This document shows positions 8,094 through 46,437 of a stretch of DNA of 64,000 bases, one piece after another. This DNA comes from Heliocidaris erythrogramma (Eukaryota > Echinodermata > Echinoidea > Camarodonta > Echinometridae). The translations under genes and the position numbers were made by a program. Numbering within the stretch: position 1 is the first letter of the stretch; every line of letters begins with the position of its first letter. The stretch lies in the NCBI GenBank assembly GCA_025617745.1, contig CM046856.1, positions 40,794,888 to 40,858,887 of the forward strand. Direction: 5' to 3'. The notes beneath the pieces are model-generated. The model worked only from the letters and a program-made list of their open reading frames with translations. It did no database searches and had not been told where the DNA came from.

Positions 8094-9402
8094 GTGAGTG
8101 AATTATAAATAGAATCTGTTGGCATTCATTAGTTCTGATTCATACAGATTTAGTAATCATATCGTTCATGATCTACATTAACTTATTTATTCAAGCATTC
8201 AGTTATAATGCATTTATCAACAGTATGTTTGTGCATTTTTCAGATGGTCTCAATAAATGCAAAATATGCAGAAAGAATTGAAGTTTTATCAAGGAATTCA
8301 TAATAATTGAAGATTTTATTCATGCAGATCCATTATGTTTCAGTTTAAGCATAATTTATTTTTCTGATTAACGGTAAGATTTTTCAAGTGATTTTCAATT
8401 ATACCTTTTATTAATGGAGAGAATAACATAGTTTGTAAGCTGTGGGGGGGGGGGGGGGGGGGGGGGGGTATCCGCGTCCGTGACTTTCTGAAAAGCACCC
8501 TAAACAAGGATTTTAGTGGAAGATATTTGATACCCTATTCAGGGAAACCCGCGACGATTTTTAGATCCTTAAGAGGGATTTTTTTAGACTTTGCAAAGTA
8601 TTGTACACCCTATTCGAGGATTGGTTCTTCTTGGCCCATATTTTGTTGAAAAGGAAGAGTAAAAGGCAAATATTTACTTTGGAAACGGGCTTACAGAACG
8701 ATGTTTTTATTGAATAATAGAAAAGAACCTCTTCGGATTAATGAAAAAAATCCACGAGAAGATTTTCAGATGCTGCTTATTTTGCTAAGTTATGCCCCCC
8801 CCCCCCCACCCCAGGGAGCAAAGAGACCGTGCAGCCAATTTTACAATTTTTAACCCTAAAAACCACAATATCTTGTGCATTTTACCCAGGAAATTTTGCA
8901 GTTGACCACCGCATTGAGCGGTATAGAAGGTCAAATGTTATACATTGATACATTGGCGGATCCAGGGGGGGCACTTCCGGCCCGTGCCCCCCCCTTTTTT
9001 GGAAGAAAAGTATGCATTTTGACCATAGACGATCCGCCATTTCTCGATTGTGCCCCCCTTTTAGACTGAAGATTTTTTTTTTTTTGAGCGAATTTTGAAG
9101 GTCTGGGGAGACAAAAAACATACGGGTCTACCTTTTCCAAAAATTGACAAACCTGCATTTGTGTGCCCCCTCTTTTACTCAATCCTGGATCCACCCCTGC
9201 ATTGATTAACGGTTTTCTATATTCACTCACTTCTACAATTGGGAGCAAAACTAACAAAAGCCCTATATAGGCTTGAGAAAGAGTCAAGAAATACAGCAAG
9301 GCTACCTACAGTTGATATTTCTTTCAAAAGTTTAACCTTTCCAAATGCTGTTTCACTTTATCCTATATTGGGGGCGCAATATTTAGCAGGAGTCATTTGA
9401 AA
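8094..9402 (+). other. Start of the 29-kb ABHD13 intron, with poly-G and poly-C tracts
   Basis: The donor GTGAGT is at 8094. A run of about 26 G lies at 8443-8468 and a C-rich run at about 8796-8812. A MITE is listed separately at 8956-9199. Otherwise no gene is recognised. Confidence 0.75.
8956..9199. repeat. MITE with GGATCCAGG ends
   Basis: Inverted ends GCGGATCCAGG and CCTGGATCCACCCC bound a 244-base non-coding element rich in short C/G runs. CATTG at 8951-8955 and 9200-9204 is a candidate 5-bp target-site duplication. A similar end appears at about 32610 (GGGGCGGATCCAGG). Confidence 0.6.
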
Positions 9403-12400
9403 TTTACTGCAATAAATCATATATACCTACCTATTATGCTAGTAGTCTTGACTACGTGACCCCTTCGAGAACTTAACACAAATGAGTCACAATATTGTGT
9501 GCACCCCCCGTAATCCTATTGTTCCCCTTCGCCACTCACGCGCGGCAACACGCAACGGCCATCTTCCTCTTTCTTGCTCGCCCCCGACGAGTTAGGATGT
9601 CAAGTCATGGCGCTCCTGAAATCAGGTCTTTTTGTATCTTAAAAGCGCTTTCCGGTACTTATATTCGTCTAGATTATAGTACTCTTGTGTTTTGTTAGTC
9701 ACTTTTGCCGATTGCTAGGGATTTTTTATTCCTTTTCTTGGCAATTATTTTTCACTTTTACGGTTAGCCCCACGTAGTTATATCTGTGTGTTTGCGGGTG
9801 TTTCCGTTTGGCACCGAGCCTTTGGGTTCGGTGTTTGTTGTCACAGTTTTTTGCTGTGAAATTTGTTGTGCGTATCTCCAAATTTATTATTATTATTACC
9901 TGCACTCAGTCAAAGTATTTCATATTTTGTTATACTTTATTGTCTGTTTTATTGCAGTGTTCGGAAGAAGAAGCAGCTAGGTCGCGGAGACCTGCTTCTT
10001 CCGAAGAGTCGTCTAGCAAGACGACTCGGCCCTCCAGAACTCTCCCGAGTACTTCGCTACATGGGGGAAGGAGGAGGGCTGCAGGTAAGTTGCCCAGTGG
10101 TGTTTCCCTGCAGGGTTTTGCCAGCCTCGGAGCTTGCAGCTTCGGGGCGGGTGGCGTTAGTTGAGCTTGGGACGTCAACTCCGAAGCCGAAACCGAATAA
10201 ACGCTCTAAAAAGCGAGTTTCGGCTTCGGCTCTTGTTGAGCCAGCCAAAAAGAAGCCTAAGAAAGGGGCTAAAAGAGGCAAGGCTTTGCCTGCCTGTTGC
10301 CCGTCGGGTTTGGCTAACCCACTGGCCTCTCAAGCTGAGATGTTCGGCATGATGCGGGCTTTTGCCCAGACTAAGGGTTGGTCCCTTGTACCGGGCACCA
10401 CATCCCCTGCTTCTGGGGTCCGAACGAAACCGAATAAACGCTCTAAAAAGCGAGTTTCGGCTTCGGCTCTTGTTGAGCCAGCCAAAAAGAAGCCTAAGAA
10501 AGGGGCTAAAAGAGGCAAGGCTTTGTACCGGGCACCACATCCCCTGCTTCTGTCCCTATTTTAGGGTCGGACATTGAGACTAATCAGCCTTTTATAGTTG
10601 ATTCTTGTTTGTCTGAGATGGGATCACATGCGTCTCCTATTCTCGCAGCCCTTGGGGCTCTGCCGGGTGAGGAGACTTATGGTGGTCCATGGGAGGATCC
10701 GACTGTTTCGGCCTTTGTTCGTGATCCTGTGTCACGATCAATTCAGGTGGAACGAGATTTAGAGGCGGACTCTCAAGCTTCGGTTTCCGAATCGCTGGGG
10801 CAGGCAGAGCCTCAGTCACTCTCCCTTTGTGGGGTAGAAGCGATTGCTTTGTTGTCCTAATATCTCCCTGATTTTCAGTCAGCCCGCGCGCAGAATTCGA
10901 CTTCGCGTTGGTTCAGGCAGCAGGATTCCTCCGAGGGTATTTCTCTTGCGGAGGATTTCAAGCTGGAGTTTGACTGCATTGAAGCGGTGCTTCTAATTAA
11001 GCGTCCTGTTTAGTTTGCAGTGGTCACAGCTTTCCACTGTAGCTGCCTCGGTCATGTACCATCGCAGAGTCTTGGTTCTTACGGCCCTTGGGGTTAAGGA
11101 GTCGGACATCGCACCGCTTCTCCGGGATGTTCAGTCTCGGGGTCCTTCGCTTTTTGGCGGTCAATTTGCTACGGTTTTTCAAAGAGAAATCGATGCCCGA
11201 AAACAGGTCTTTGTCTTGATTACGCAGTTTCGCGCTCACTCTAAGTCGATGCGGGCCTCTGTCCGCGACTTGGTAGATGGCCGTCTTCGTTCCTTTCTCC
11301 CCACTTGGGAGGCCATCTCCGGGGACGCTTTTGTTCTCTTTGTCGGGCGAGACCGATTCTTCATAGATCTGTCCGCCCCGCTCCCCGGAGGGGCTATAAG
11401 AACTCGGGCACCTCACATGTCTGCCCTCGCTCGTTCTCATGCCTCATCGGAGATCGAATCTCTGTTGAAAAAGAGGGCTATAGAAAGGGTAAGAGACTGG
11501 CTGTCTTTTTCCCTTTCTCCGACTTTTGTTATTCCCAAGCGCTTGGGAAAACTTCGTTTGATACTGAACTTGAAAAGAATAAACAAATTCATTCCTTCAG
11601 TACATTTTCGGATGGAGACTCTCGCCTCCATTCTCCTGTTGATCAAGAGGAAGGACTACGCGGTCTCGATAGATTTCAAAGGTGCGTATTTCCATATTCC
11701 CATTCATCGCACTTCGGCGATCTTCTAGGGTTTTCCTTCCTCTCAGAGACTTTTCGCTTTCGCACTCTTCCCTTCGGGCTGCGCCCAGCCCCTCGGGTTT
11801 TTACTCGGGTTGTAGCCGTGCTGGCAGCCTCACTGAGGCGACGCGGCCTTCGGCTATTTTACTACTTGGACGATTGGCTTCTAGCGGAGTCGCGCGATCA
11901 TTTTTTAGACGAGACTTGTTTGCTCGTCAATCTTACTCAAGACTTGGGTTTCCTAATAAATTGGGAAAAGTCATAGTTCCTACTCCCAGCCCAGTTTTTC
12001 CGGGGGCTGTGTGAGACATTCGGAATCAGTTGACTCGGCCCAGTCGAGACAGGATTCTCACCATTGTCTCGGCGGCTCGCAAGCTCATGCTGGCAAGAAA
12101 GGTCAAGGCCAGACAGTGGCCTCAGTTCTTGGGATATCTAGCCAGTCTAGTCGATGTTCTGGAGGATTGCCGGCTCTCTATGAGACCGTTTCAGAGACAT
12201 CTCCTCAGGTTTTACAAGCCGGGCAAGGATTCTCTGTTGGTCTGGTTTCCAGTACCAATAGGAATCAAGTCTCTTCTCTCTCGTTGGACGAACGAGGAGT
12301 TTCTCGCGCGAGGCAAGTCCTTCCGTACCCCTCTTCCGTCGATCTCGGTTTCGACGGACGCCTCTCGGTTGGGGTGGGGAGGACATTGCAATGGCAGCAC

Positions 12401-13064
12401 GGTCGCGGGGGATTGGTCTCATCTTGGGACTCTTCCCCATATCAATGTCCTGGAGTTTATGGCAGTTCTGTTAACCCTGCTCCATTTCAGAAGTCGACTT
12501 CTCAGTCGTTCAGTTCTGATCCTCACGGACAATGTCACTGTGGCGGTTTATATCAATCGGGGCAGGTGTCTTCCATCAGAATGGATGCTCCATCCAGAGG
12601 TCTTTTGCCGCATTCGCAGTTGCCTGGGTCCACTGGAAGTGGATCTTTTTGCGTCGGTCCTAAACCACCAACTTCCGAAATATTGCTCCCGTGTTCGCGA
12701 TCAGGGAGCTTGGGCTCTCGATGCTTTCTCTCTCAGTTGGGAGAATCTTCGAGGATTCGCCTTTCCTCCCTTTCAGCTGATTCCGCGAGTCTTGCGGAAG
12801 ATCAGGGAAGATCGGGCTCGGGTGCTTGTGATAGCTCCCTTTTGGCCCAGGAGGAGTTGGTTTTCCGGAGCTAATGAGCCTTCTGGCGGCTCAACAGTTC
12901 CTTCTTCCGTTAAGAACGGATCTGGTGTTGCAGCCCCTCTCGGGGATTCTTCACCACAGTCCGGAGTCCCTTCATTTGACTGGTTGGCCCCTATCGGGGA
13001 ATCTGCAAGACAGTCGGGTCTCTCTGATAGAGCCGCGGACTTTTTAACCCATTCGCGACATTGA
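9403..13064 (+). mobile_element. DIRS-type fossil B, 5' part (terminal repeat, gag-like, RT, RNase H)
   Basis: The left end TTTACTGCAATAAATCAT is the family terminal repeat, shared with C (15949) and with the C-type segments at 25749 and 27961. Parts in order: leader; a 127-nt exon-like cassette (9958-10084); a gag-like region with a Lys-rich nuclear-localisation-like stretch; RT with the catalytic YLDD at about 11860-11880; and RNase H (VLEFMAVLLTLLHF, ILTDNVTVA). Its recombinase end is at 15490-15922, separated from this part by 2.4 kb of other DNA. Sequence is close to C, so it is fairly young. It is broken, with several disruptions. An internal direct duplication of about 237 bases lies around 10190-10530. 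Confidence 0.9.
9958..10084 (+). other. Exon-like cassette of DIRS B (127 nt)
   Basis: It lies between the acceptor TTTTATTGCAG (ends 9957) and the donor CAG|GTAAGT (10085-10090). The same arrangement is found in C, D and E. It carries the hairpins GAAGAAGCAG/CTGCTTCTTC and GAGTCGTC/GACGACTC. Confidence 0.6.
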
Positions 13065-15489: not shown

Positions 15490-15922
15490 ATTTGTATTAA
15501 AGTCTTATCGTAAGGATGATCAGTTGTTCCTGATCACTTGAGAGCCGTTTTCTCCTGCTTCTCTTGATTCCATTTCTAGATGGATTGTCGAGGCTATTAG
15601 AGCTGCTGGCACAGAGGCTCTTTTATCTGACAGTAAGCCTCGTGCTCATGACACTCGTAGTGTCAGCACTTCCTGGGCTCTGTTTCAAGGTGTGGCGCTT
15701 GATGATATTTTGAAGGCTGCTTATTGGCGTTCGTCCAATTCCTTCATTTCTTGCTACCTTAGGGATGTCCCTGCAGGTGAGGCTATTTTTGCATCAGCCA
15801 CCTTGAAGGCCGCTGTGTTTTCTTTGTAATCCTATTCCCTTCTGCTTGAAACATGCCTCCCGGTCTTTGAGTTGGCGTGGTCTAGCATAATAGGTAGGTA
15901 TATATGATTTATTGCAGTAAAT
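15490..15922 (+). mobile_element. DIRS-type fossil B, 3' part (end of tyrosine recombinase and 3' terminal repeat)
   Basis: It encodes the C-terminal recombinase features AHDTRSVSTSWALFQG (H-x-x-R box) and a closing SCYLRDV tyrosine block. A short untranslated tail follows, then the inverted terminal repeat CATAATAGGTAGGTATATAT to GCAGTAAAT. It is very similar to the 3' end of C (20970-21215). Confidence 0.85.
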
Positions 15923-15984
15923 TTGTAAAATCAGCACTGATTTTCTTATTTACTGCAATAAATCATATATACCTACCTATTATG
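15886..15984. repeat. Palindromic junction joining DIRS B and C head to tail
   Basis: The 3' terminal repeat of B (CATAATAGGTAGGTATATAT ... GCAGTAAAT) and the 5' terminal repeat of C (its inverse) flank a 26-base centre that is itself nearly palindromic (AAAATCAG-CA-CTGATTTT). Together they form an inverted repeat of about 99 bases. The same centre recurs at about 21210-21232, 21500 and 21790. Confidence 0.85.
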
Positions 15985-16518
15985 CCAGTAGTCTTGACTA
16001 CGGGACCCCTTCGAGAATTTAACACAAATGAGTCACAATATTGTGCGCACCCCCGTAATCCTATTGTCCCCTTCGCCACTCACGCGCGTCAACACGCCAC
16101 GGCCATCTTCCTCTTTCTTGCTCGACCCCGACGAGTTAGGATGTCGAGTTACGGCGCTCCTGAAATCAGGTCTTTTTGTATCTTTTCGGCGCGCTTTTTC
16201 GCATCGTAAAAGCACTTTTCGGTACTTATATTTGTTTAGATTAAAGTACTCTTGTGTTTTGTTAGTCACTTTTGCCGATTGCAAGGGATTTTGATTCCTT
16301 TTCTTGGCAATTAGTTTTCATTTTCACGGTTAGCCCTACGTAGTTATATCTGTGTGTTTGAGGGTGTTTGCGTTTGGCACCGAGCCTTTGGGTTTGGTGT
16401 CTGTTCTTACGGTTTTTTGCTGTGAAAATTTGTTGTGCATATCTCCCAAATTTTTGATATTTTTATCTGCACTCAGTATTTCATATTTTGGTTTACTTTA
16501 TTGTCTGTTTTATTGCAG

Positions 16519-16652
16519 TGTTATAAATTCGGAAGAAGAAGCAGCTAGGTCGCGGAGACCTGCTTCTTCCGAAGAGTCGTCTAGCAAGACGACTCGGCCC
16601 TCCAGAACTCTCCCGAGTACTTTGGTACATGGGGGAGGGAGGAGGGCTGCAG
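16519..16652 (+). other. Exon-like cassette of DIRS C (134 nt)
   Basis: The acceptor TCTGTTTTATTGCAG ends at 16518 and the donor CAG|GTAAGT is at 16653. The cassette holds three hairpins in a row: GAAGAAGCAG/CTGCTTCTTC, GAGTCGTC/GACGACTC, and CTCCC-GTAC/GTAC-GGGAG. Splice use is inferred from the site consensus and from conservation in four families. Confidence 0.6.
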
Positions 16653-17480
16653 GTAAGTTGCCTAGTGGTGTTTCCCTGCAGAGTTTGCCAGTCTCGGAGC
16701 TTGCGGCTTCGGGATGGGTGGCGTTAACTGTTCCTGGGACGTCAACTCCGAGGCCCGTGGCTTTGGGGTGGGTGGCGTCAGGCTCTAGTGGTTTGGATAT
16801 CTCGAATCCAACCCCAGAGGGGGGGCGGTCGTTTCCCGCACGGTAGCGTTCACTCGCTTAAATCCGTTAGGGGAGACTCGTCCCACTACTGCCGTCAGGT
16901 TCAGGTGGTTTGGATATCTCGAATCCAATCCCCCGGTCGTCAAGACCAGAAGGGGGGGCGGCTGTTTCCCGCACGGTAGCGTTCACTCGCTTAAATCCGT
17001 TGGGGGAGACGCGTCCCACTACTGCAGGGCAGCCCATGGGCTTAGTCCATGTTGGTCTGGGTTCTCAAACCCTAGCCCCCGGCCGATGCCATATGGGGGA
17101 ACGAGTACTTCCCGGGCTGTCTACATTGCCAGCTGATGGGAATGCTCGAGCTAACAATTATGGACGCTCTTCGGAGCAACAGGTGTTTTCACCTGAGTGC
17201 GTGACTACTAGTGCTCTCCTATTGCCGCTCCCTAGCGGTTCAATAGCGGGTTCACACGCCTCTAGTAGTCAACGGGCACATACCGAGTCATCTCGGTCCG
17301 CCCCCGCACTGGGTGATTTCAGCACCCAGCCCATGGCTATCGCATCTTTTTGCTCAGCCAATATGGGTAATTTGTGCGAGACTTTGGGTTCATACCCTCA
17401 GCGCACTACTCCCTTTGAGGGAGGTGAGCGTCCCTCCACAGAGGGTTCGGTTCGTGTTTCCGAAGCGGCTTCGGGGATCC
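16531..17480 (+). other. Hairpin chain in the gag-like region of DIRS C
   Basis: Successive short stems are read directly: GGGTT-ctca-AACCC (about 17060); GCTC-TTCG-GAGC (17166-17177, a UUCG tetraloop); CAGGTG-tttt-CACCTG (17180-17195); GACTACTAG/CTAGTAGTC (17203-17270) enclosing CTATTG-GCT/AGC-CAATAG (17219-17246); CCGAG-tcat-CTCGG (17283-17296); CTGGGTG/CACCCAG (17309-17329); CTCCCT/AGGGAG (about 17408); CCCTC-caca-GAGGG (about 17431); CCGAAG-cgg-CTTCGG (about 17460). The chain overlaps an open protein-coding frame. Comparison with D shows conserved and compensated pairs. Confidence 0.7.
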
Positions 17481-20400
17481 GAACGAATCCGAATAAGCGC
17501 TCTAAGAAAAGGGTTTCGGCTACGACTCTTGTCGAGCCAGCCAAGAAGAAGGCCAAGAAAAAGGCAAAAAGGGGCAATGTTTTGCCGGCCTCTTGCCCGT
17601 CTGGCCTGGCTAACCCGGCTAGTTCCTCTCAAGCTGAAATGTTCAGCATGATGCGGGCTTTCGCTCAGAATTAGGGTTGGTCCCTTGTACCGGGTACTTC
17701 AACCCTTGCTTCTGCCCCTATTCCGGGGTCTGACTTTGAGACTATTCAACCTTTTGTGATCGAGTCTTCTTTGTCTGAGTCGGGTTCGCATGCGCCTCCT
17801 ATTCCCGCGGCCCTCGGGGCTCCGCCGGGCGAGGAGACTTATGTTGATCCATGGGAGGGTCCGCCTGCTGCGTCCTTTGTTGGCGGTCCTTTGTTCCATT
17901 CCACTCGGGTGGAACCAGAGTTAGAGGCGGCCTCTCGAGCTTCGGTTTCTGAATCGCTTGGGCAGGCGGAGCCTCAATCGCTCGCCCTGTGCAGGGTGGA
18001 AGCGATTGCTTTGTTGTCTAAATATCTCCCTGAATTTCAGTCAACCCGCGCGCAGGGTTCGACTTCGCGTTGGTTCAGGCAGCAGGATTCCTCCGAGGGT
18101 ATTTCTCTCGAGGAGGATTTTATGCTGGAGTATGACCGCATCGTGGCTGCTTTTTCAGGTTTTCTCTCCGACCTCAGGTCTAGGGCGGAGGAGTTGAATG
18201 TCACTGATGGTGACAAGCTGGTTATTGATGACCTGTTGCATACTCTCTTTAGTTTGCAGTGGTCACAGCTTTCTTCTGCGGCCGCTTCGGTTACGTACCG
18301 TCGCAGAGTCTTGGCTCTTTCGGCCCTTGGGGTTAAGGAGTCGGACATCGCGCAGCTTCTCCGGGATGTTCCGTCTTGGGGTCCCTCGCTTTTTGGTGGT
18401 CAATTTGCTACGGTTTTTCAGAGAGAGATTGATGCGCGTAAGCAGGTCTTTGACATGACTACGCAGTTTCACACTCACTCTAAGCCGACGCGGGCCCCTG
18501 TCCGTCGGAGGCCTGCTGGTCCTGCTTCGGGTCAACACAGCAGTGTTTCTGGGGTCCTGCCTACTGAGTCTCAGCCAGCTCCTTCTCGCGGGAGAGGTGG
18601 ACGTGGCAGAGGCTCTTCAAGAGGTTCTCGTGGCAAGGCGACGGCTTCGCATAAGGCCAAGCCTAGGCTTTGATGGTCTTCCCCGAGCGCTTGTTCTTTC
18701 CGACATGGTAGGTGGCCGACTTTGTTTCTTTCTCCCCGCTTGGGAGGCCTTTTCCGGGGACGCTTTTGTGCTCTCCGTCGTGCGAGACGGATTCTTCATA
18801 GATCTATCCGCTTCGCTCCCCGGAGGGGCTATAAGAACTCGGTCACCTCCCTTGTCTGCCCTGGCTCGATCTCATGCTTAAAAAGAGATTGAGTCTTTGT
18901 TGCAAAAGAGGGCTAATCTCCAATCTTTGTCATTCCCAAGCGCTAGGGAAAACTTCGTTTGATACTGAATTTGAAAAGAATAAACAAATTCATTCCTTCG
19001 GTACATTTTCGGATGGAGACTCTCGCCTCCATTCTCCCGTTGATCAAGAGGAAGGACTACGCAATCTCGATAGATCTCAAAGATGCGTATTTCCATATTC
19101 CCATTCATCGCGCTTCGCGCGATCTTCTAGGGTTTTCCTTCCTCTCAGAGACTTTTCGCTTTCGCGCTCTTCCCTTCGGGCTGCGCCCAGCCCCTCAGGT
19201 TTTTACTCAGGTCGTAGCCGTGCTGGCAGTCTCACTGAGGCGACGCAACCTTCTGCGATTTTCCTACCTGGACGATTGGCTTCTCCTAGCGGAGTCTCGC
19301 GATCGTTTGTTGGACGAGACTCGTTTGCTCGTCAATCTTACTCAAGACTTGGGTTTCCTAATAAATTGGGAAAAGTCAGAGTTAGTTCCTACTCGCAGCC
19401 CAGTTTTTCTGGGGGCTGTGTTGGACATTTGGAATCAGTTGGCTCGGCCCAGTCGAGACAGGATTCTCACCATTGTCTCGGCAGCTCGCAAGCTCATGCT
19501 GGCCAGAAAGGTCAAGGCCAGACAGTGGCTTCAGTTCTTGGGGTATCTAGCCAGTCTAGTCGATGTTCTGGAGGATTGCCGGCTCTTTATGAGACCGTTT
19601 CAGAGACATCTCCTTAAGTTTTACAAGCCGGGCAAGGATTCTCTGTTGGTCTGGGTTCCAGTACCAATAGGAATCAAGTCTCTTCTCTCTCGTTAGAAGA
19701 ACGAGGAGTTTCTTGCGCGAGGCAAGTCCTTCCGTACCCCCCTTCCGTCGATCTCGGTTTCGACGGACGCCTCTCGGTTGGGGTGGGGAGGACATTGCAA
19801 TGGCAGCACGGTCGCGGGGGATTGGTCTCATCTTGGGACTCTTCCCCATATCAATGTCCTGGAGTTTATGGCGGTTCTTTTAACCCTGCTTCATTTCAGA
19901 AGTCGACTTTTCAGTCGTTCAGTTCTGATCCTCACGGACAATGTCACTGTGGCGGCTTATGTCAATCGGCAGGGAGGCACTCGTTCTGCTATCCTGAATG
20001 CCCTAGCAGCACAGCTGTGGAGGTGGTGTTGTCGCATGGCGATCACACCCGTGGCCTCTTTCATCCCCGGTCAGGAAAACCTCATTGCGGATTTTCTGTC
20101 TCGGGGCAGGTGTCTTCCATCGGAATGGATGCTCCATCCAGAGGTCTTTTGCCGCATTAGCAGTTCCCTGGGTCCACTGGAAGTGGATCTTTTTGCGTCG
20201 GTTCTAAACCACCTACTTCCGATATATATTGCTCCTGTGCGCACGATCGGGGAGCTTGGGCTCTCGATGCTTTCTCTCTCAGTTGGGAGAATCTTCGAGG
20301 ATTTGCCTTTCCTCCCTTCCAGCTGATTCCGCGAGTCTTGCGGAAGATCGGGCTCGGGTGCTTGTGATAGCTCCCTTTTGGCCCAGGAGGAGTTGGTTTC

Positions 20401-21174
20401 CGGAGCTAATGAGCCTTCTGGCGGCTCAACCGTTCCTTCTTCCGTTAAGAGTGGATCTGGTGTTGCAGCCCCTCTCGGGGATTCTTCACCACAATCCAGA
20501 GTCCCTTCATTTGACTGCTTGGCCATTCATTCGAGTTTCTCAGATGGTTCGGGGATTTCCAATTCCCCGCTGTTAAGTGGTTTGATTCGGTCGTTCTTTC
20601 TGAAACGACCTCCTTGTTCTAGGTTAGTGCCGTCTTGGAGTCTGCCTAAGGTCCTGGAGGCCTTGGCGAAACCTCCTTTCGAACCGTTAGGTGAAGCTTC
20701 GCTTCATCATCTTACGGTTAAGATGCTCTTTTTGGTAGCTATTGCCTCTGGGCAGAGGCGCAGTACTCTTCATGCTCTCTGCCTTACTCCTGGTCATGTT
20801 CGCTGGGAGAGAAAAGGCGTTAGATTGATTCCTAAGGCTTCTTTTATTGCCAAGAATCAGACAGCTGCCTCTGGCCCTGTTGAGATTTTTCTTTGTCTGC
20901 TTTCTGGGTTTTCGTCAGTGCGCGAGGACAAAGTTTGGTGTCCTGTTAGGGCTCTCAAATGGTATATCGCTTGATGATATTTTGAAGGCTGCTTATTGGC
21001 GTTCGCCAAATTCCTTCATTTCTTGCTACCTTAGGGATGTTCCCGCAGGTGAGGCTATGTTTGCGTCAGCCACCTTGAAGGCCGCTGTGTCTTCTTTGTA
21101 ATCTTCGGTGTAATCCTATTCCCTTCTGCTTGAAACATGCCTCCCGGTCTTTGAGTTGGCGCTGGTCTGGCATA

Positions 21175-21800
21175 ATAGGTAGGTATATATGATTTATTGC
21201 AGTAAATTTGTAAAATCAGCACTGATTTTCTTATTTACTATATAAATCTATATACCTACCTATGACCCTCCCTCCTTCCCCTCACCTTGCAAGCAACATG
21301 TTTCTACTTGGGGTTCCTTGCAAAAGAGGAAGATGGCCGTGGCGTGTTGACGCGCGTGAGTGGCGAAGGGGACAATAGGATTACGGGGGGTGCGCACAAT
21401 ATTGTGACTCATTTGTGTTAAATTCTCGAAGGGGTCCCGTAGTCAAGACTACTGGCATAATAGGTAGGTATATAGATTTATATAGTAAATAAGAAAATCA
21501 GTGCTGATTTTACAAATTTACTATATAAATCTATATACCTACCTATGACCCTCCGTCCTTCCCCTCACCTTGCAAGCAACATGTTTCTACTTGGGGTTGC
21601 TCGCAAAAGAGGAAGATGGCCGTGGCGTGTTGACGCGCGTGAGTGGCGAAGGGGACAATAGGATTACAGGGGGGGCGCACAATATTGTGACTCATTTGTG
21701 TTAAATTCTCGAAGGGGTCCCGTAGTCAAGACTACTGGCATAATAGGTAGGTATATAGATTTATATAGTAAATAAGAAAATCAGTGCTGATTTTACAAAT
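21175..21800. repeat. Tandemly repeated terminal/internal complementary region of DIRS C
   Basis: Each unit contains the inverse of the element's first ~200 bases (for example the inverse of GTCACAATATTGTGCGCACC) bounded by TATATACCTACCTATGACC and CATAATAGGTAGGTATATAG. The units repeat with a 283-base period (TATGACCCTC at 21261 and 21544). In DIRS elements this inverted region pairs the cDNA ends for circle formation; one copy is normal and two are unusual. Confidence 0.85.
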
Positions 21801-24542: not shown

Positions 24543-26328
24543 GGGGTCATCCCTATAGCTAGAAGGTCCGATAGTTAGCGGGTCCGATAGACCGACACCC
24601 AATAGATAGAAGGTTCGATAGACCGAATGTACGAGAGGGTCCAGTAGACAGAAGGTTCTATAGACCAAATTCGGCAGGAAGGTCCAATAGTCCGAAGGTT
24701 CTATAGATCGAATGACCAACGGGTCCGATAGTCAGAAGGTCCGATAGACCGACAATAAATACGTAAAAAGGGTAAATAGTGGATAAAATGAAAAGTGGGT
24801 AAAAAATAAGTGGTTAAAATAAGTGGGGGAGTTATGTTTTCAGATGTTTTCAAATGTGGGGAGGGGGCGGGAATACCCTCCCCTCCCACTTTTCATGCCT
24901 GAAAAGGGGGTTCCAACCAAAGAAAAAGCAAAAAATGAAGAGGTTGAAAAGGAAAGAAGGAAAGAAGGAAAGAAAAGAAAGCTAGGGAAAGAAGAGAAAA
25001 AGAAAAGAAATCAGAAAGGAAAGAGAAGAAAAGAAAAATTCGAAAACTTTGCTCTATAGCATTATTAGGGTTATTTACCAATGCCCATTATATTTTCATT
25101 ATTGATATTAGTTATTAAATATAATCGCCATATTTATGTATATATAAACCAATGCCAATTATATTAATAAGTCATATGCTTATGGAAGTTATTTGGTTTG
25201 CATCTTGAATCTCTAGCTAATATTATGCTATTTTTCTACTCAAAGAATGCTAGCAACATAACTGAAAGGAACCGAGTAGCAAGGGGCTAAAGAGATGAAT
25301 TTTCAGAAATAATGGCCTGTGACAATAGACTCTTCCCAATATGAGAACGGAATAACTATACGCTAGAACATATTCTCAGGATACAAAATTCTTTTTTTCT
25401 CTCTCTCTCTCGTTCGCTCGCTTTGCTCGCTCATACAATCAAGAAACTAGGCCTAGATTATTTACTACAATAAATCAATGTACCTAGTACCTATTTGCTA
25501 GTCTTCCGACTACGCAAGCCATTTGAGTAATTAAAGTCACGACAGTGCATATACCCCCCCTAGGATCACGCCTTCCTCTCTGCACGTACGCATGACGCGC
25601 GCACACAATCCTCCTCTTTCCTTCTCGCAGCCTAAAGAGTTGCAGCTAAGTCACTATCTTGCGCAAAAATTCAGAGTTTGCTACTCTTTTAGCGCGTTTT
25701 GGGGTGACTTTTGCCAATATTTCCGTCCTAGACTTGTTTATTATCTGATTTACTGCAATAAATCATATATACCTACCTATTATGCCTGTAGTCTTGACTA
25801 CGGGACCCCTTCGAGAATTTAACACACATGAGTCACAATATTGTGCGCACCCCCCGTAATCCTATTGTCCCCTTCGCCACTCACGCGCGTCAACACGCTA
25901 CGGCCATCTTCCTCTTTCTTGCCCCCGACGAGATAGGACGTATAGTCACAGCGCTCCTGAAATCAGGTCGTATAGTATCTTTTAGGTGCGCTTTTTCGCA
26001 CATTTAAAGCACTTTTAGGTACCTATATTCGCTTAGATTATAGTACTGTGTGTTTTAGTAGTCACTTTTGCCGATTGCAAGGGATTTTTGATATCCTTTT
26101 CTTGGCATTTATTTTTCCCTTTCACGGTCAGCCCCACGTAGATATTTCTGTGTGTTTGCGGGTGTTTCCGTTTGTCACCGAGCCTTTGGGTTCGGTGTTT
26201 GTTCTTACGGTTTTTTGGCTGTGAAAATCTTTTGTACGTATCTCCCAAATAAATTTTACTCTTATTTTACTGCATTCAGTTGAAGTATTTCTTATTTCGA
26301 AAAGTATACTTTGTCTGTTTTATTGCAG

Positions 26329-26459
26329 TGGTATGAATTCGGAAGAAGCAGCTAGGTCACGGAGACCTGCTTCTTCCGAAGAGTCGTCTAGCAAGACGAC
26401 TCGGCCTTCCAGAACTCTCCCGAGTACTTCGGTACATGGGGGAGGGAGGAGGGCTAAGG
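26329..26459 (+). other. Exon-like cassette in the C-type 5' region of D (131 nt; second copy 28541-28671)
   Basis: The acceptor TCTGTTTTATTGCAG ends at 26328 and the donor AAGG|GTAAGT is at 26460-26465. ATG at 26333 begins the gag-like frame. Hairpins: GGAAGAAGCAG/CTGCTTCTTCC (26341-26377), GAGTCGTC/GACGACTC (26381-26402), and CTCCC-GTAC-TTCG-GTAC-GGGAG (26417-26444). Confidence 0.65.
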
Positions 26460-26865
26460 GTAAGTTGCCTAGTGGTGTTTCCTTGCAGAGTTTGCCAGTC
26501 TCGGAGCTTGCGGCTTCGGGACGGGTGGCGTTAACTGAATCGGGATTGTCAACTCCGAAGCCCGTGGTTTCGGGGTGGGTGGCATCAGATTCTAGTGGTT
26601 TGGATATCTAACGAATCCAATCCCCCGGTCGCTGAGACCAGAGGGGGGGGGGGCGGTTGTTTCCCGTACGGTAATGTCACTCGCTCTGATCCGTTAGGGG
26701 AGACGCGCCCCACTACTGCAGGGCAACCCACGGGCTTAGTCCATGTTGGTCTGGGTTCTCAAACCCTAGCCCCCGGCAAACGCCATATGGGGGAACGAGT
26801 ACTTCCTGGGCTGTCTACATTGCCAGCTAATGGGAATGCTCGAGCTAACAATTATGGACGCTCTT

Positions 26866-27180
26866 CGGAGCAACAGGTGTTTTCACCTGAGTGCGTGACT
26901 ACTAGTGCTCCCCTATTGCTGCTTTCGAGCGGTCCAATAGCGGGTTCACACGCCTTTAGTAGTCATCGGGCACATACCGAGTCATCTCGGTCTGCCCACG
27001 CACTGGGAGCTTTTAGCTCCCAACCCATGGCTACTGCATCTTCTTGCTTAGCCAATATGGGTGATTTGGGCGATTCTCTAGGCTTACGCCATGAGCGCTC
27101 CAATCCCTTTTTGGGAAGTGAACGTCCCTCCGCGGAGGGATCGGTTCGTGTTTCCGAAGTGGCTTCGGAGATCCGAACGA
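26866..27180 (+). other. Hairpin chain in the gag-like region of D (second copy 29078-29392)
   Basis: Same order of stems as C. GCTC-TTCG-GAGC, CAGGTG-tttt-CACCTG and CCGAG-tcat-CTCGG are unchanged. CTATTG-CTGCT-ttcg-AGCGG-CAATAG has a G:T pair where C has G:C. TGGGAGC/GCTCCCA (27004-27022) replaces C's TGGGTG/CACCCA with paired changes. TCCCTCCGCGGAGGGA is a longer perfect palindrome than in C. CCGAAG-tgg-CTTCGG is kept. Confidence 0.7.
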
Positions 27181-30100
27181 ATCCGATTAAGCGTTCTAAC
27201 AAAAGGGTTTCGGCTACGACTCTTGTCGAGCCAGCCAAGAAAAAGGCCAAGAAGAGGGCAAAAAGTGGCAAGGCTTTGCCGGCCTCTTGCCCGTCTGGCC
27301 TGGCTAACCCAGCTAGCTCCTCTCAAGCTGACATGTTCAGCATGATGCGGGCTTTTGCTCAGAATGCCAATTATATTAATAAGTCATATGCTTATGGAAG
27401 TTATTTGGTTTGCATCTTGAATCTCTAGCTAATATTATGCTATTTTTCTACTCAAAGAATGCTAGCAACATAACTGAAAGGAACCGAGTAGCAAGGGGCT
27501 AAAGAGATGAATTTTCAGAAATAATGGCCTGTGACAATAGACTCTTCCCAATATGAGAACGGAATAACTATACGCTAGAACATATTCTCAGGATACAAAA
27601 TTCTTTTTTTCTCTCTCTCTCTCGTTCACTCGCTTTGCTCGCTCATACAATCAAGAAACTAGGCCTAGATTATTTACTACAATAAATCAATGTACCTAGT
27701 ACCTATTTGCTAGTCTTCCGACTACGCAAGCCATTTGAGTAATTAAAGTCACGACAGTGCATATACCCCCCCTAGGATCACGCCTTCCTCTCTGCACGTA
27801 CGCATGACGCGCGCACACAATCCTCCTCTTTCCTTCTCGCAGCCTAAAGAGTTGCAGCTAAGTCACTATCTTGCGCAAAAATTCAGAGTTTGCTACTCTT
27901 TTAGCGCGTTTTGGGGTGACTTTTGCCAATATTTCCGTCCTAGACTTGTTTATTATCTGATTTACTGCAATAAATCATATATACCTACCTATTATGCCTG
28001 TAGTCTTGACTACGGGACCCCTTCGAGAATTTAACACACATGAGTCACAATATTGTGCGCACCCCCCGTAATCCTATTGTCCCCTTCGCCACTCACGCGC
28101 GTCAACACGCTACGGCCATCTTCCTCTTTCTTGCCCCCGACGAGATAGGACGTATAGTCACAGCGCTCCTGAAATCAGGTCGTATAGTATCTTTTAGGTG
28201 CGCTTTTTCGCACATTTAAAGCACTTTTAGGTACCTATATTCGCTTAGATTATAGTACTGTGTGTTTTAGTAGTCACTTTTGCCGATTGCAAGGGATTTT
28301 TGATATCCTTTTCTTGGCATTTATTTTTCCCTTTCACGGTCAGCCCCACGTAGATATTTCTGTGTGTTTGCGGGTGTTTCCGTTTGTCACCGAGCCTTTG
28401 GGTTCGGTGTTTGTTCTTACGGTTTTTTGGCTGTGAAAATCTTTTGTGCGTATCTCCCAAATAAATTTTACTCTTATTTTACTGCATTCAGTTGAAGTAT
28501 TTCTTATTTCGAAAAGTATACTTTGTCTGTTTTATTGCAGTGGTATGAATTCGGAAGAAGCAGCTAGGTCACGGAGACCTGCTTCTTCCGAAGAGTCGTC
28601 TAGCAAGACGACTCGGCCTTCCAGAACTCTCCCGAGTACTTCGGTACATGGGGGAGGGAGGAGGGCTAAGGGTAAGTTGCCTAGTGGTGTTTCCTTGCAG
28701 AGTTTGCCAGTCTCGGAGCTTGCGGCTTCGGGACGGGTGGCGTTAACTGAATCGGGATTGTCAACTCCGAAGCCCGTGGTTTCGGGGTGGGTGGCATCAG
28801 ATTCTAGTGGTTTGGATATCTAACGAATCCAATCCCCCGGTCGCTGAGACCAGAGGGGGGGGGGGCGGTTGTTTCCCGTACGGTAATGTCACTCGCTCTG
28901 ATCCGTTAGGGGAGACGCGCCCCACTACTGCAGGGCAACCCACGGGCTTAGTCCATGTTGGTCTGGGTTCTCAAACCCTAGCCCCCGGCAAACGCCATAT
29001 GGGGGAACGAGTACTTCCTGGGCTGTCTACATTGCCAGCTAATGGGAATGCTCGAGCTAACAATTATGGACGCTCTTCGGAGCAACAGGTGTTTTCACCT
29101 GAGTGCGTGACTACTAGTGCTCCCCTATTGCTGCTTTCGAGCGGTCCAATAGCGGGTTCACACGCCTTTAGTAGTCATCGGGCACATACCGAGTCATCTC
29201 GGTCTGCCCACGCACTGGGAGCTTTTAGCTCCCAACCCATGGCTACTGCATCTTCTTGCTTAGCCAATATGGGTGATTTGGGCGATTCTCTAGGCTTACG
29301 CCATGAGCGCTCCAATCCCTTTTTGGGAAGTGAACGTCCCTCCGCGGAGGGATCGGTTCGTGTTTCCGAAGTGGCTTCGGAGATCCGAACGAATCCGATT
29401 AAGCGTTCTAACAAAAGGGTTTCGGCTACGACTCTTGTCGAGCCAGCCAAGAAAAAGGCCAAGAAGAGGGCAAAAAGTGGCAAGGCTTTGCCGGCCTCTT
29501 GCCCGTCTGGCCTGGCTAACCCAGCTAGCTCCTCTCAAGCTGACATGTTCAGCATGATGCGGGCTTTTGCTCAGAATCAGGGTTGGTCCTTGTACTGGTA
29601 CTTCAACCCTGACTTCTGTCCCTATTCAGGGGTCTGACTTTGAGACTAATCAGCCTTTTGTGTTGGAATCGTCTTTGTCTGAGTCGGTTTCGCACGTGCC
29701 TCCTATTCCCGCGGCCCTTGGGGCACCGCTGGGCGAGGAGACTTTCGTTGAACCATGCGGGGCTCTGCCTGCTGAGGCCTTTGTTAGCGTTCCTTTGTCT
29801 CTTTCCACTCGGGTGGAACCAGATTTGGAGGTGGCCTCTCAAGCTTCGTTTTTGAATCGCTTGGGCAGGCGGAGTCTCAATCGCTCGCCCTCTGTGGGGT
29901 GGAAGCGATTGCTTTGTTATCCAGATATCTCTCTGAATTTTAGTCATCCAAGGGTAGATCGATTTCAACCATACGTGGCTATCGTTCGGCTATTGCCGCC
30001 GTCCACGTTGGTTTTGCTGATGGTTCGGGAGTCTCCAACTCCCCTCTTTTGGCTAGGTTGACTCGCTCCTTCTTCTTACAGCGTCCATCAACTCGTAGCC

Positions 30101-41938: not shown

Positions 41939-42330
41939 TTTACAGCAATAAATCAATGTATCTACCTACATGTATTTGCTAGTTTCCCAAACTATGCCGT
42001 CATTCGAGAAAAACTAAGTCAGAAACGTGCATGCCCCTGCCCGCACGCGCGCTCCCCGTCCACCAATAAAAAATCGCGCAGCCGCCATGCTCTTCCTCTT
42101 CCTTTCTCGCCCGTCAGAGAAGTGACATCTATGAGCTAAGTCTTAGCCTAAATTGCGAGATTTTTACCTCCAAAAGCGTTTTTGGTTGCTATTCGCAATA
42201 AAAATCCCGTTCACCAAGTTTTCACACTCATTTTGGTGTATCAGATTTTTCCTGAGTCAACCTCCTTCACGGTATTTTAATCAAATTATTTTGCCGTTTT
42301 TCTTCCCCTTCTGGGCATTACTCACAGACG

Positions 42331-43465
42331 GTGTACTAGTACACTGTGTCGGGCTCTTCCCCCGTGTCTGTAGGTGGTTGATTCAACGCGCTTAGACAAG
42401 CGGTTTTATCAGAACGTTGTGTTCTCCGTAATGGGAGTTTATTCCCACTCCGTATTGTGAGTTGGTTGTTACCTTATATATAGTTCTATATTTGTTTGCT
42501 TGTCTTTCTTTTCAGCCATGTCGAAGTCTCCGTCTCTTACGGCTGGTGTTCCCCAGTAAATATAAGGGGACTCGCCTAGCCTTGGGAGGGTTGGCTGCGA
42601 CAGATTTATCTCGCACCAATGTTATCTTCCCCGGAGCTTCGACTAAGGTAAGTTAGGGCCTACCTCGTGTACGGCTCACCCCGTGATGAGTTCGTCGTCT
42701 GTTTTGACGACCAACTCATGCGGGATAAACCGGGAGAGTGAGTGCCGCACTAGGCCAATACCTCTCTTGGGAATAGAGACTTGTATAACGGGGAGAGTGA
42801 GTGCCTCACTAGGCCAATACCTCTCACCGATAAAACTGCGGGCAGTACCCCAGCCCGCAGTTCGTCTCGTCGAGTGACACTTCTCGCTCTCTAGCCATAG
42901 ATGTGTTCACTCAGGGGTTGGCTCCTTTTGTCTCTCTGCACGCTTCTAATCCAAGCAAGGCGGGTAAGAGTAAAAGGAGTCGTGATCTTCCTAGTGTACC
43001 CAGTGCAGGGCTAACTACGGAAGCGGCGCCCGTTTCAGAAGGGTAAAGGGAGCGGTAATCATGCTCGCCTGCCCAAGAAACGTAAGCGCCAGGGTCCTGC
43101 CCAGCCGGCCGGCGGGGCGGACTCTCTCCCCTCGACATCGACCGAGTCTTCACCAACTGTGTCAGGGGAGGCCAAGAAGAAGCGGGTTAGCCCTCCGAGG
43201 GCGACTACTTCTGAGTCGGGCGTCTCCCATGCACTTCTGAATTATCTGAAGATTATTGTGGAGAAGAGTGGTTAGTCGGACTCTATGTCCGTACCCCCCA
43301 CCACGCCTGACTCCAACCCCTCCCCCCCTGGGGGAAGGGATACGTGTACCCTCCCAGGGCCGGATCCGGTTCGGCTACCGGTTTTCCGGTGCCCGGATCC
43401 GGTTTTACCGGTTATCTGGCTAGGAACGCTGGTTTCCCTTGGTTATCCACCACTGTTTTCAGTGG
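42331..43465 (+). other. Hairpin chain in the leader and gag-like region of DIRS E
   Basis: GTGTACTAGTACAC (42331-42344, perfect palindrome); TGGGA/TCCCA (42432-42447); ATGAGTT-GTCGTC/GACGAC-AACTCAT (42686-42719, 13 pairs with one mismatch); AGTG-ccg-CACT and AGTG-cct-CACT in two tandem copies of a ~58-base block (about 42728-42835); ACTGCGGGC/GCCCGCAGT (42835-42861, 9 pairs); CCACTG-tttt-CAGTGG (43450-43465, repeated in the duplicated copy). The sequence is unrelated to the C/D chain. Confidence 0.7.
42516..42647 (+). other. Exon-like cassette of DIRS E (132 nt)
   Basis: The acceptor TCTTTCTTTTCAG ends at 42515, ATG is at 42518, and the donor AAG|GTAAGT is at 42648. Length and position match the cassettes of B, C and D although the sequence is unrelated. 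Confidence 0.65.
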
Positions 43466-44260
43466 ATTGGGATCCGGTTCCTCTGCTCAGGTATCCGGCT
43501 CAGTGCTGTTGGGTTCCAACACACATGAGTCTTGCCGCCCCTCTTCGGGCGTCTCCCGACCACGTTCAGCCTCGCTCTCTAGCCATAGATGTGTTCACTC
43601 AGGGGTTGGCTCCTTTTGTCTCTCTGCACGCTTCTAATCCAAGCAAGGCGGGTAAGAGTAAACGGAGTCGTGATCTTCCTAGTGTACCCAGTGCAGGGCT
43701 AACTACGGAAGCGGCGCCCGTTTCAGAAGGGTAAAGGGAGCGGTAATCATGCTCGCCTGCCCAAGAAACGTAAGCGCCAGGGTCCTGCCCAGCCGGCCGG
43801 CGGGGCGGACTCTCTCCCCTCGACATCGACCGAGTCTTCACCAACTGTGTCAGGGGAGGCCAAGAAGAAGCGGGTTAGCCCTCCGAGGGCGACTACTTCT
43901 GAGTCGGGCGTCTCCCATGCACTTCTGAATTATCTGAAGATTATTGTGGAGAAGAGTGGTTAGTCGGACTCTATGTCCGTACCCCCCACCACGTCTGACT
44001 CCAACCCCTCCCCCCCTGGGGGAAGGGGGATACCTGTACCCTCCCAGGGCCGGATCCGGTTCGGATACCGGTTTTCCGGTGCCCGGATCCGGTTTTACCG
44101 GTTATCTGGCTAGGAACGCTGGTTTCCCTTGGTTATCCACCACTGTTTTCAGTGGATTGGGATCCGGTTCCTCTGCTCAGGTATCCGGCTCAGTGCTGTT
44201 GGGTTCCAACACACATGAGTCTTGCCGCCCCTCTTCGGGCGTCTCCCGACCACGTTCAGC
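42883..44260 (+). repeat. 688-bp tandem duplication inside DIRS E
   Basis: CTCGCTCTCTAGCCATAG starts both copies (42883 and 43571). The copies differ at only a few positions plus a 2-base length difference in a G-run near 44025, so the duplication is recent relative to the insertion. Confidence 0.9.
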
Positions 44261-46437
44261 TTTGATCGTCCGGTCGGGGCTGCTCCCCTTCCAGCGGCAC
44301 TTGGTGCTCCGTCTGGGGAGGAATCCTGGGACTGCCTAAACCGCCCTTCTTGGGATCAGGCTTCGCAGTCGGGATTCTCGGAGGATGATGCCTCTTCACA
44401 GGCTGAGGTTACGTCCCAGACCTTTCGGGCCCTGGCGGTAGATACTCAAGCCCTGCTGGAGAAATATCTTCCCAGCACTTTTTGCTGTGTCGGGTCGATT
44501 CGAGACATCCGTCTATTTTTCAAAAGTGAGCGTCCCTCCAAGGGCATCCCTCTTACGGAGGGCTTTAAGCGAGTCTACAATGACTTTGCTTCTCAGCCTC
44601 CTTCCCTTTTTGGTAAGGCTCGTCCCTTGGCCAGGGATTTCACCTTCTCCCAGCGAGACACTCTCGATTCTTTACGAGAAAGTCTTGTTCCAGTGACCTC
44701 ATACATGAGGTGGAAGGTTTGGTGTCAACTTACAAGTTACACCAAAGCGGAGAAGTTCCCACATTCCAGGTGTGGCCTGAGACTGACTACCTAATTGGGT
44801 ACGCTCCTTTCCCTTCGGGCTAGGGGCCAGGAACTCCAGATGTCTGATTCGGACATTCTGTTGTTAGAGGGACATAACTGCCCTTTTGGTCAGTGTTCGG
44901 TCAACACCTCTTTGGAGGTAGGGTGACAGAGGTGATAAAACTTGAAAGTTGAATCACGCAATCAGGTGGCGGAACTTCCAAACGCCTTAAATCCTCGGCT
45001 CCGAAGTAACAGGCCCAGGCTAACGTTCCACCTCCTAGACGCGGTGTCACTTCCGGCTATCAGCCCACTCGTGCACCGCTAGTTCAGCCCAGTGCTCCAC
45101 GTTCGTTTGGAGCCAAGGCGGAGCCTTCTCGTGGAAGGAAGAAGGCCCGAGGTCGCGGTCGGGGCCTTGATACTTCTTCCCGCCTGGGAAGAAATTACTG
45201 ACAAGTTCGTGCTCTCCTTCATGCGAGGAGGCTTCTGCATAAAGCTCGCAGAGCCCCTCCCACACGGAGCCTTCCGCTGCAACCCTCCTACACTCTCGCC
45301 CCCTTTTCTAGAGCACATCTCCTCAGAGATTCAAGAGCTGCTGGAAAAGGGCACGATTGAAAGGGTACAAGACACCTTCATCTGTGTCTCTCCCCTATCC
45401 TTGTATTTCCCAAACGCTTGGGGAAACTCACATTGATCTGGATATGAAGGTCATGAATACCTTCATACCTAGGGAGCGTTTCCGCTTGGAAACCTTGGCC
45501 TCGATTCTTCCGGCTATCGCCGTCAGACGTGGTCATTACGGTGAACTTGAAAGATGCTTACTTTCATATACATGTTATATTCATGTTATATTCAGTTACA
45601 TGCTAGGTTTCACCTTTTAAGGAGAAACTTTCCGGTTCAGAACCTTACCTTTCGGACTGAAACCCTCACCTCGAGTTTTTACTCCAGTAGTCTCTGCCCT
45701 AGCCGCTTTCCTCAGGTATTGCGGTCTGAGACTTCGTCTTCTCTCCTGCCCCGCGTTCGTTCTTCCCGTCCTGTGACATGCCACCCGGGTTTTTATCTGT
45801 GCTATTCTAGCAGATAGGTAGGTACATTGATTTATTGCTGTAAATCAAGAAAATTATAACTAATTTTGTTATTTACTAGATAAATCAATGTATCTACCTA
45901 TGTTCCTCCCTCCAGCCCCTCGCCTTGTCTGGACGACTGGCTCCTGGTGGCGAGCTCTGTGTCCGTCCTTCAGTCTCACATGGACCTACTTCTCCGTACT
46001 CACAGAGAGTAGGGTTCATAGTCCACTGGGACAAGTCGGAGTTGACTCCTACCCGCAGGCCCATTTACCTGGGTGAGGAATTAGACATCGTGAACCAAGT
46101 TGCCCGCCCTGTCGGGAGAGGGTTCAAGCGATTGTCTTACTAGCTCGATCTCTTCGTCTCTTACGTCGAGTTCGGGCAGGCCGATGGCTTCATTTCTTGG
46201 GCCACTTATCGAGCCTTGTGGATGTCCTCCAAGACATGTCCTAGATTCTGTTTCCGACTGCTCGGAAGAGGAAGAGCTTTGCGGCTGCGCGATCTTATAT
46301 TGGGGAGCGTGCGCGCGGGCAGGGGCATGCGCGTTTCTGACTTAGTTTTTCTTGAATGACGGCATAGTTTGGGAAACTAGCAAATAGGTAGATACATAGA
46401 TTTATCTAGTAAATAACAAAATTAGTTATAATTTTCT

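Follow-up and report, generated by a model that had tools for sequence, protein, structure and literature searches.

By what means DIRS elements pick out the RNA to be copied is, to our knowledge, not known. The question arises at a locus of the echinoid Heliocidaris erythrogramma (assembly GCA_025617745.1, contig CM046856.1, positions 40,794,888 to 40,858,887 of the forward strand), a stretch of 64,000 nucleotides that was analysed as a whole and is called the window here. A preliminary description, made from the letters alone, had reported a chain of short hairpins through the gag-like frame of a DIRS copy at 16531-17480 and had proposed that selection maintains a folded RNA or single-stranded DNA there. 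This raises the questions of whether a fold is maintained, which molecule carries it, and what it might do for the element.

A DIRS1-like element and its copies

The window holds the DIRS copies B (about 9400-13000), C (about 15890-21546), D (25740-27365, cut) and E (27952-29985), and their relatives A (1-2045), G (42000-46400) and F (57600-61842). Copies D and E are borne by a 2212-base tandem duplication with 2 differences (25151-29574) and were counted once because the domain discussed below is identical in both. Since copy B is also devoid of a counterpart of about C 16756-17477, the domain comparison has two independent members, C and D, and covariation was assessed on these two sequences by substitution-placement and shift nulls. 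Scans of IMG/VR with the reverse transcriptase, with the downstream part of gag (17756-18673), with an alignment of the reverse transcriptase and with an exact pattern of 51 bases taken from the domain turned up no confirmed relative, nor did a scan of GTDB genomes with the reverse transcriptase. In G+C content the DIRS copies exceed most of the window, reaching about 52-53% in C 16001-20000 (2-kb steps).

Copy C has the reverse transcriptase (18959-19693, plus strand; Pfam RVT_1, 1e-18) and the inverted terminal repeats of a DIRS1-like element, the left repeat at 15890-16116 (plus strand) pairing with the right repeat at 21323-21546 (minus strand) at 96% identity. It likely encodes an RNase H and a recombinase as well. 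The RNase H is suggested by a weak Pfam RT_RNaseH match (0.0074; 16.9 bits at a cut-off of 24.8), and C 19745-20233 is similar to the corresponding region of F (7.6e-42), which itself has no RNase H match. For the recombinase, C 20555-20785 resembles that of F (5e-7), which matches Phage_integrase (5e-8); two pieces of C gave no Pfam match on their own. The stretch 21167-21263 is inverse complementary to 15890-15988 (88%) and is a candidate internal complementary region. A methyltransferase domain had no match in the scanned pieces of C, the pol region having been scanned in pieces.

By eye, a possible first gag exon of 29 bases lies at 16141-16169 (ATG to CAG, then GT at 16170), and a possible 3' splice site, TTATTGCAG, ends at 16518, upstream of 16519-16534. 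Joined, they would continue without a shift into the gag frame at 16535, which suggests a 349-base intron (16170-16518). Inside the gag of C, a consensus-like 5' splice site, CAGGTAAGT, is found at 16650-16658, and its GTAAGT is kept in D. The same frame also has an internal partial duplication (16773-16892 and 16890-17025, 82% alike) that is absent from D and whose first copy is interrupted by stops in that frame. A further stop at 17672-17674 interrupts the gag frame of C, and copy E is open at the same place.

A structured domain in the gag frame

Hairpin density was compared with dicodon shuffles, which preserve protein, codon counts and dinucleotides, counting non-overlapping perfect hairpins (stem of 5 or more, loop of 3-10). 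In C 16910-17671, 14 such hairpins with 80 bp were found, and shuffles gave 5.1 +/- 2.0 hairpins and 27.0 +/- 11.2 bp and reached 80 bp in 0/60. The counterpart in D has 10 hairpins with 59 bp, a value likewise reached in 0/60 shuffles. The mean 80-base fold energy of this interval lies 6.1 sd (C) and 7.2 sd (D) below the dicodon null. The chain of successive hairpins, denser than codon-preserving shuffles produce, was thus borne out for 16910-17671, and it did not extend over the whole of the interval first described: 16535-16801 is not denser in perfect hairpins (C 14 bp, as high in 7/60 shuffles; D 19 bp, in 6/60). This upstream stretch nevertheless has a fold energy below 60/60 dicodon shuffles (plus-strand z about -4.0 to -4.2 in C and -3.2 to -3.8 in D), and broken pairs are not significantly depleted in it. 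In a plain hairpin scan with dinucleotide shuffles, 17001-17500 ranked 13 of 255 and was not the densest interval of the window.

The structured domain proper spans C 17147-17507 (inside the gag frame), D 26841-27201 and E 29053-29413, all three on the plus strand; the E copy is identical to D and not independent. On 80-base fold energy the domain alone has dicodon z-scores of -4.2 (C) and -6.6 (D), with 0/80 shuffles as low for each, and as a whole RNA fold dinucleotide z-scores of -6.8 and -10.5 (0/100 each). Rfam 15 gave 0 matches at gathering score in the window, and in lax searches of stretches of C, D and B every match scored far under the cut-off. Two covariance models built from C and D found full-length matches only in C, D and E (in E at 29102-29217 and 29330-29412); the first model also gave three partial minus-strand matches (E-values of 0.25-0.98), all on one same stem. 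A hairpin ribozyme (RF04190) was considered for a full-length, sub-threshold match upstream, on the minus strand of 16648-16748 (25.3 bits, gathering 40), and rejected: its loop B resembles the family, and its loop A, by eye, departs from the consensus. A similar match in B (10080-10194, minus strand) scored 24.6 bits, and none was listed for D.

From its 5' end, the domain starts with a run free of C/D substitutions (17147-17216; P 0.0015 for a run that long). The UUCG tetraloop hairpin of the preliminary description is present here (17166-17177, GCTC TTCG GAGC) and goes unused in local and global minimum-energy folds. A 6-bp hairpin with a TTTT loop (17180-17195), identical in C and D, is followed by a branched arm (17196-17311) in the RNAalifold consensus of both copies, with stems 17196-17201/17305-17310 and 17202-17210/17263-17271, an inner hairpin (17211-17255) and a hairpin at 17274-17303. 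The second of these stems is the nine-pair outer stem around an inner hairpin that had been seen earlier. At 17309-17329 stands the compensated stem, corresponding to D 27003-27023 (27004-27022 in the preliminary description), where T-A became A-T at 17314/17324, the encoded residues changed from Asp to Ala and from Thr to Ser, as first noted, and the outer pair 17309/17329 was lost in D. A stem-loop at 17374-17406 has two pairs kept through two-sided changes (17375/17405 and 17389/17394) and one broken pair (17386/17397). Finally, a three-way junction (17424-17506) comprises an outer helix with G-C to A-T at 17428/17500, a hairpin (17432-17445) and a long stem with T-A to A-T at 17446/17493. 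This junction is supported by the consensus of the 83-base piece, and unconstrained whole-domain folds pick a different closing helix. C and D disagree in seven of the ten hairpin loops; therefore, most loops cannot be fixed recognition sites. A candidate self-complementary loop at 17437-17440 is not conserved either, reading CACA in C and CGCG in D.

The alignment of the domain between C and D covers 361 bases without gaps and has 46 substitutions, which fell on 19/236 paired (8%) versus 27/125 unpaired (22%) bases (Fisher P 0.0004). Among the 118 pairs of the local fold of C, 106 were unchanged in D, 3 were kept with a one-sided change, 5 were kept with a two-sided change and 4 were broken. 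Base-matched random placement expects 9.6, 0.8 and 17.0 +/- 2.5 for the last three classes, and cyclic shifts expect 8.1, 1.0 and 18.6; as few as 4 broken pairs occurred in 0/2000 placements and 0/360 shifts. One-sided kept changes were also rarer than expected (3 versus 9.6). On the fold of D (123 pairs), 5 pairs were kept one-sided, 4 two-sided and 7 were broken, with no shift as low in broken pairs. For two-sided kept pairs the shift P was 0.003 on the C fold and 0.019 on the D fold. The named structure, with 98.3% of cells paired, contains all five (17314/17324, 17375/17405, 17389/17394, 17428/17500 and 17446/17493), against 0 in six slid versions; the RNAalifold consensus retains 3, the global fold of C 3 (5 broken) and the global fold of D 2 (9 broken). 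Two of the five fall in the junction, for which unconstrained folds choose a different closing helix, and a letter-dealing control was weaker, as 3' letters dealt anew reached 5 two-sided changes in 13/500. Copy B, which lacks the 5' arms, has the letters of C at the 3' arms 17493 and 17500, and both changes therefore look derived on the D branch, which amounts to half a polarisation. In the adjoining 164-base blocks (16983-17146 and 17508-17671) no significant pair preservation was found.

Simulated drift led to the same picture. When the 46 changes were placed at random on C, the fold energy of -154.1 rose to -123.9 on average (sd 5.8), a cost of about 30 kcal/mol, versus -167.6 for the real D; the reverse simulation from D ended at -128.8 versus -154.1 for the real C. 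The real energy was reached in 0/120 simulations in both directions. Maintenance of the fold, as the preliminary description had proposed, is thus supported by the codon-preserving shuffles, the depletion of pair-breaking changes, the two-sided changes and the drift simulation. We infer that selection for the fold in C 17147-17507 is the cause; it is the best reading and, with two independent copies, one that we hold to be quite probable. Folding by chance from base composition alone, to which the higher G+C of the DIRS copies might lend itself, is already contradicted by the codon- and dinucleotide-preserving shuffles and by the drift simulation, and has hardly any probability left.

The protein encoded by the domain is under weak constraint. 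Substitutions by codon position were 13/16/17 in 17147-17507 and 0/2/8 in 17508-17671, and dN/dS between C and D was 0.70 in 17147-17485 and 0.33 in 17486-17671. Elsewhere, dN/dS was 0.74 in the reverse transcriptase of C/B and 0.77 in the gagC segment of C/E; as the domain is not above these values, a weakly constrained protein does not distinguish it. In this respect the domain stands out only by how its codon positions contrast with those of the next block. Bases in pairs are guarded where the protein barely is, weak protein constraint being common in these copies.

Folding tendency, copying errors and strand

An unlikely reading, though one with evidence in its favour, is that the whole transcript folds for stability or for escape from small RNAs or sensors of double-stranded RNA, and that the domain has no site-specific role. 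In an energy scan with 120-base windows, the average fold z was low along the copies B, C, D and E and along G. Stretches of these elements had mean plus-strand z-scores of -1.3 to -2.6, versus -0.32 in 361 non-DIRS windows. With dicodon shuffles, z-scores in C were -4.1 in gagC (-2.1 and -1.7 for its halves taken alone), -2.2 in the reverse transcriptase and -1.6 in the RNase H-like part. The recombinase (YR) part of A had -1.7, and F had -2.4 in gag (0/60), -0.2 in the reverse transcriptase, 0.1 in the RNase H-like part and -1.1 in YR. In B, the RNase H-like part had -2.4, but the gagC and reverse transcriptase segments were near null (-0.7 and -1.1), which speaks against folding of the transcript as a whole. 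The gag-like region of G has a hairpin-rich block (43311-43634, plus strand; z -4.5, 0/80) and a duplicate block of the same kind (43938-44336, plus strand; z -5.7, 0/80), both in stop-free stretches taken as putative frames; over 22 overlapping stop-free stretches of G in three putative frames, plus-strand z ranged from -5.7 to +0.9. The duplicated block (43317-43577 and 44007-44267) is 98% identical and had no sequence match to the domain of C in the comparisons run. This region lies in a 688-base tandem duplication (42883-44267) with GGATCC/CCGG-rich palindromes. In the plain hairpin scan, the highest z of the window was seen in the RNase H/recombinase part of C at 20251-21000 (5.3 and 7.0 in two overlapping 500-base windows), a part without consistent pair preservation versus A or a 33.5-kb fragment.

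Pair preservation outside the domain was assessed in two control sets. In the first (17 segment pairs, two strands, two directions, domain left out), P(broken) was below 0.01 in 2/68 cases (C/B RH-YR and G duplicate, each for the minus strand and in one direction), and P(both) was below 0.01 in 2/68 (C/B RH-YR, minus; X15/X33, plus). In the second (10 pairs, two directions), P(broken) was below 0.01 in 3/20 (C/D leader, C/B leader and X15/A, each in one direction) and P(both) in 1/20 (X15/X33, with 0.99 in the reverse direction). Drift simulations matched the stability of the real partner in 7 and 3/200 for gagA, 0 and 13/120 for gagC, 145 and 6/200 for gagC2, 1 and 23/200 for the adjoining downstream block and 133 and 19/200 for the upstream one, so that gagA and gagC resist simulated drift to some degree. 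These mixed control and drift results make some folding pressure outside the domain possible. Against general folding as the full account, preservation is sharp at 17147-17507, is not significant in the adjoining blocks and is not consistent in gagC, reverse transcriptase or YR. We read this as a shared folding tendency among the copies plus one sharply preserved domain in C and D.

The main non-selective explanation, which we regard as improbable, is mutational. Template switching of a polymerase or reverse transcriptase between near-complementary arms (quasi-palindrome correction) would change both sides of a pair together without selection. A part of template switching in both the creation and the upkeep of RNA hairpins has been proposed, with the authors calling its role in the upkeep of short stems less clear (PMC8794818). 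The strand-neutral folding excess within the domain would fit such an origin, and the internal duplications in C and G indicate that copying errors do occur. However, 0/7 differing loops are the reverse complement of their counterpart, and, by eye, copying one C arm once at 17309-17329 does not yield D. Moreover, two co-changed pairs have their partners 47 and 72 bases apart with other hairpins in between, and the control stretches, including hairpin-rich ones, show no consistent preservation.

Less probable still is a fold that acts as single-stranded DNA, in the minus-strand cDNA or in a circular intermediate, for instance at the start of the second strand or in protection of the circle. We know of no link between the position of the domain and circle closure, which counts against this reading. 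DIRS models do include a circular intermediate (PMC3266345), and the minus strand folds well as DNA (z -8.2). Whole-fold z-scores for the plus versus the minus strand were -6.9 versus -5.5 in C and -10.4 versus -8.5 in D, and under dicodon shuffles the strands of the domain were nearly equal (C -4.28 and -4.20; D -6.65 and -6.59). At 17217/17249 and 17226/17237, C-G in one copy and U-G in the other are paired on the plus strand and would be A.C on the minus strand; 17309/17329, 17278/17299 and 17339/17355 are the reverse case, and hence the wobble count does not decide the strand. The G:C to G:T change of the preliminary description corresponds to 17211/17262, which is paired in the minus-strand fold only, and to the C-G to U-G change at 17226/17237. 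Numbers of G.T and A.C mismatches in near-perfect hairpins were too few to tell the strand in gagB of C (1 and 0) and in D (0 and 0); in G they were 2 and 13, an imbalance possibly due to its duplicated block. In contrast to the domain, the upstream stretch 16535-16801 prefers the plus strand (minus-strand z -2.5 in C and -1.7 in D), which argues against a DNA role. The domain is strand-neutral under codon shuffles; plus-strand RNA as the molecule that would do the work is our choice rather than a finding.

Proposed role and relation to known systems

According to the explanation that we favour, C 17147-17507 would be a folded part of the genomic RNA that works in cis and shares its bases with a stretch of gag under weak constraint. 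Its base pairs would be under stronger selection than the residues or, in its 3' half, the letters of the loops, and the domain would mark the full-length RNA to be bound by Gag, dimerised or packaged. For this explanation as a whole we estimate a probability of roughly 0.4. Taken by itself, recognition or packaging of the genomic RNA would be the likeliest job of the domain, a view held at a little under even odds; it is suggested by where the domain lies, in the 5' part of gag, and by its form, a cluster of stem-loops over a few hundred bases, to which pairing conserved in two copies may be added. Frame choice, which the preliminary description had put forward next to packaging and template switching as the circle forms, finds no support in the sequence, since one and the same gag frame spans the domain. 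More tentatively, and with some doubt, tyrosine-recombinase retrotransposons of this clade may have an undescribed cis-acting RNA domain in gag for RNA recognition or dimerisation, built anew from unrelated sequence in two or more families (C and G).

If this wider reading is true, the domain would be the first non-terminal cis signal for DIRS elements. The domain would also be a coding region whose base pairs are guarded more strictly than its amino acids. As a defined candidate of 360 bases, it makes RNA selection in DIRS elements testable by probing and binding assays.

RNA viruses have genome-scale ordered RNA structure. Likewise, folding exceeds shuffles over much of the DIRS element, whereas individual pairs are preserved in one interval of C/D. 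With DIRS1-like retrotransposons, copy C shares the reverse transcriptase and the inverted terminal repeats. The cis features that the overview PMC3266345 describes for DIRS elements are terminal repeats (ITRs) and internal complementary regions (ICRs), and the terms "secondary structure" and "hairpin" are absent, by word search, from the main text of that overview, as they are from PMC9210276 and PMC2685390. Among the matches listed in a literature search, outside of which most subscription papers lay, no paper dealt with an RNA domain in the gag of DIRS elements. The domain differs from a retroviral psi in that it is known from sequence alone and that 7/10 loops differ between C and D; a psi has, like the domain, multiple stem-loops, which at times extend into gag (PMC5454406).

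Ty1 is an LTR retrotransposon, whereas DIRS elements are tyrosine-recombinase elements with inverted repeats. The DIRS domain, unlike the Ty1 region, begins roughly 1 kb in from the left repeat; its description comprises stem-loops and a junction, and neither kissing loops nor a pseudoknot. In Ty1, the 5' UTR and 327 nt of GAG work in cis (PMC5454406), and a preferential interaction of Ty1 Gag with RNA carrying the packaging signal has been reported (PMC8396678). Like the domain in copy C, the TIPIRT/packaging region of Ty1 consists of several hundred bases of stem-loops that reach into the 5' part of gag (PMC5454406).
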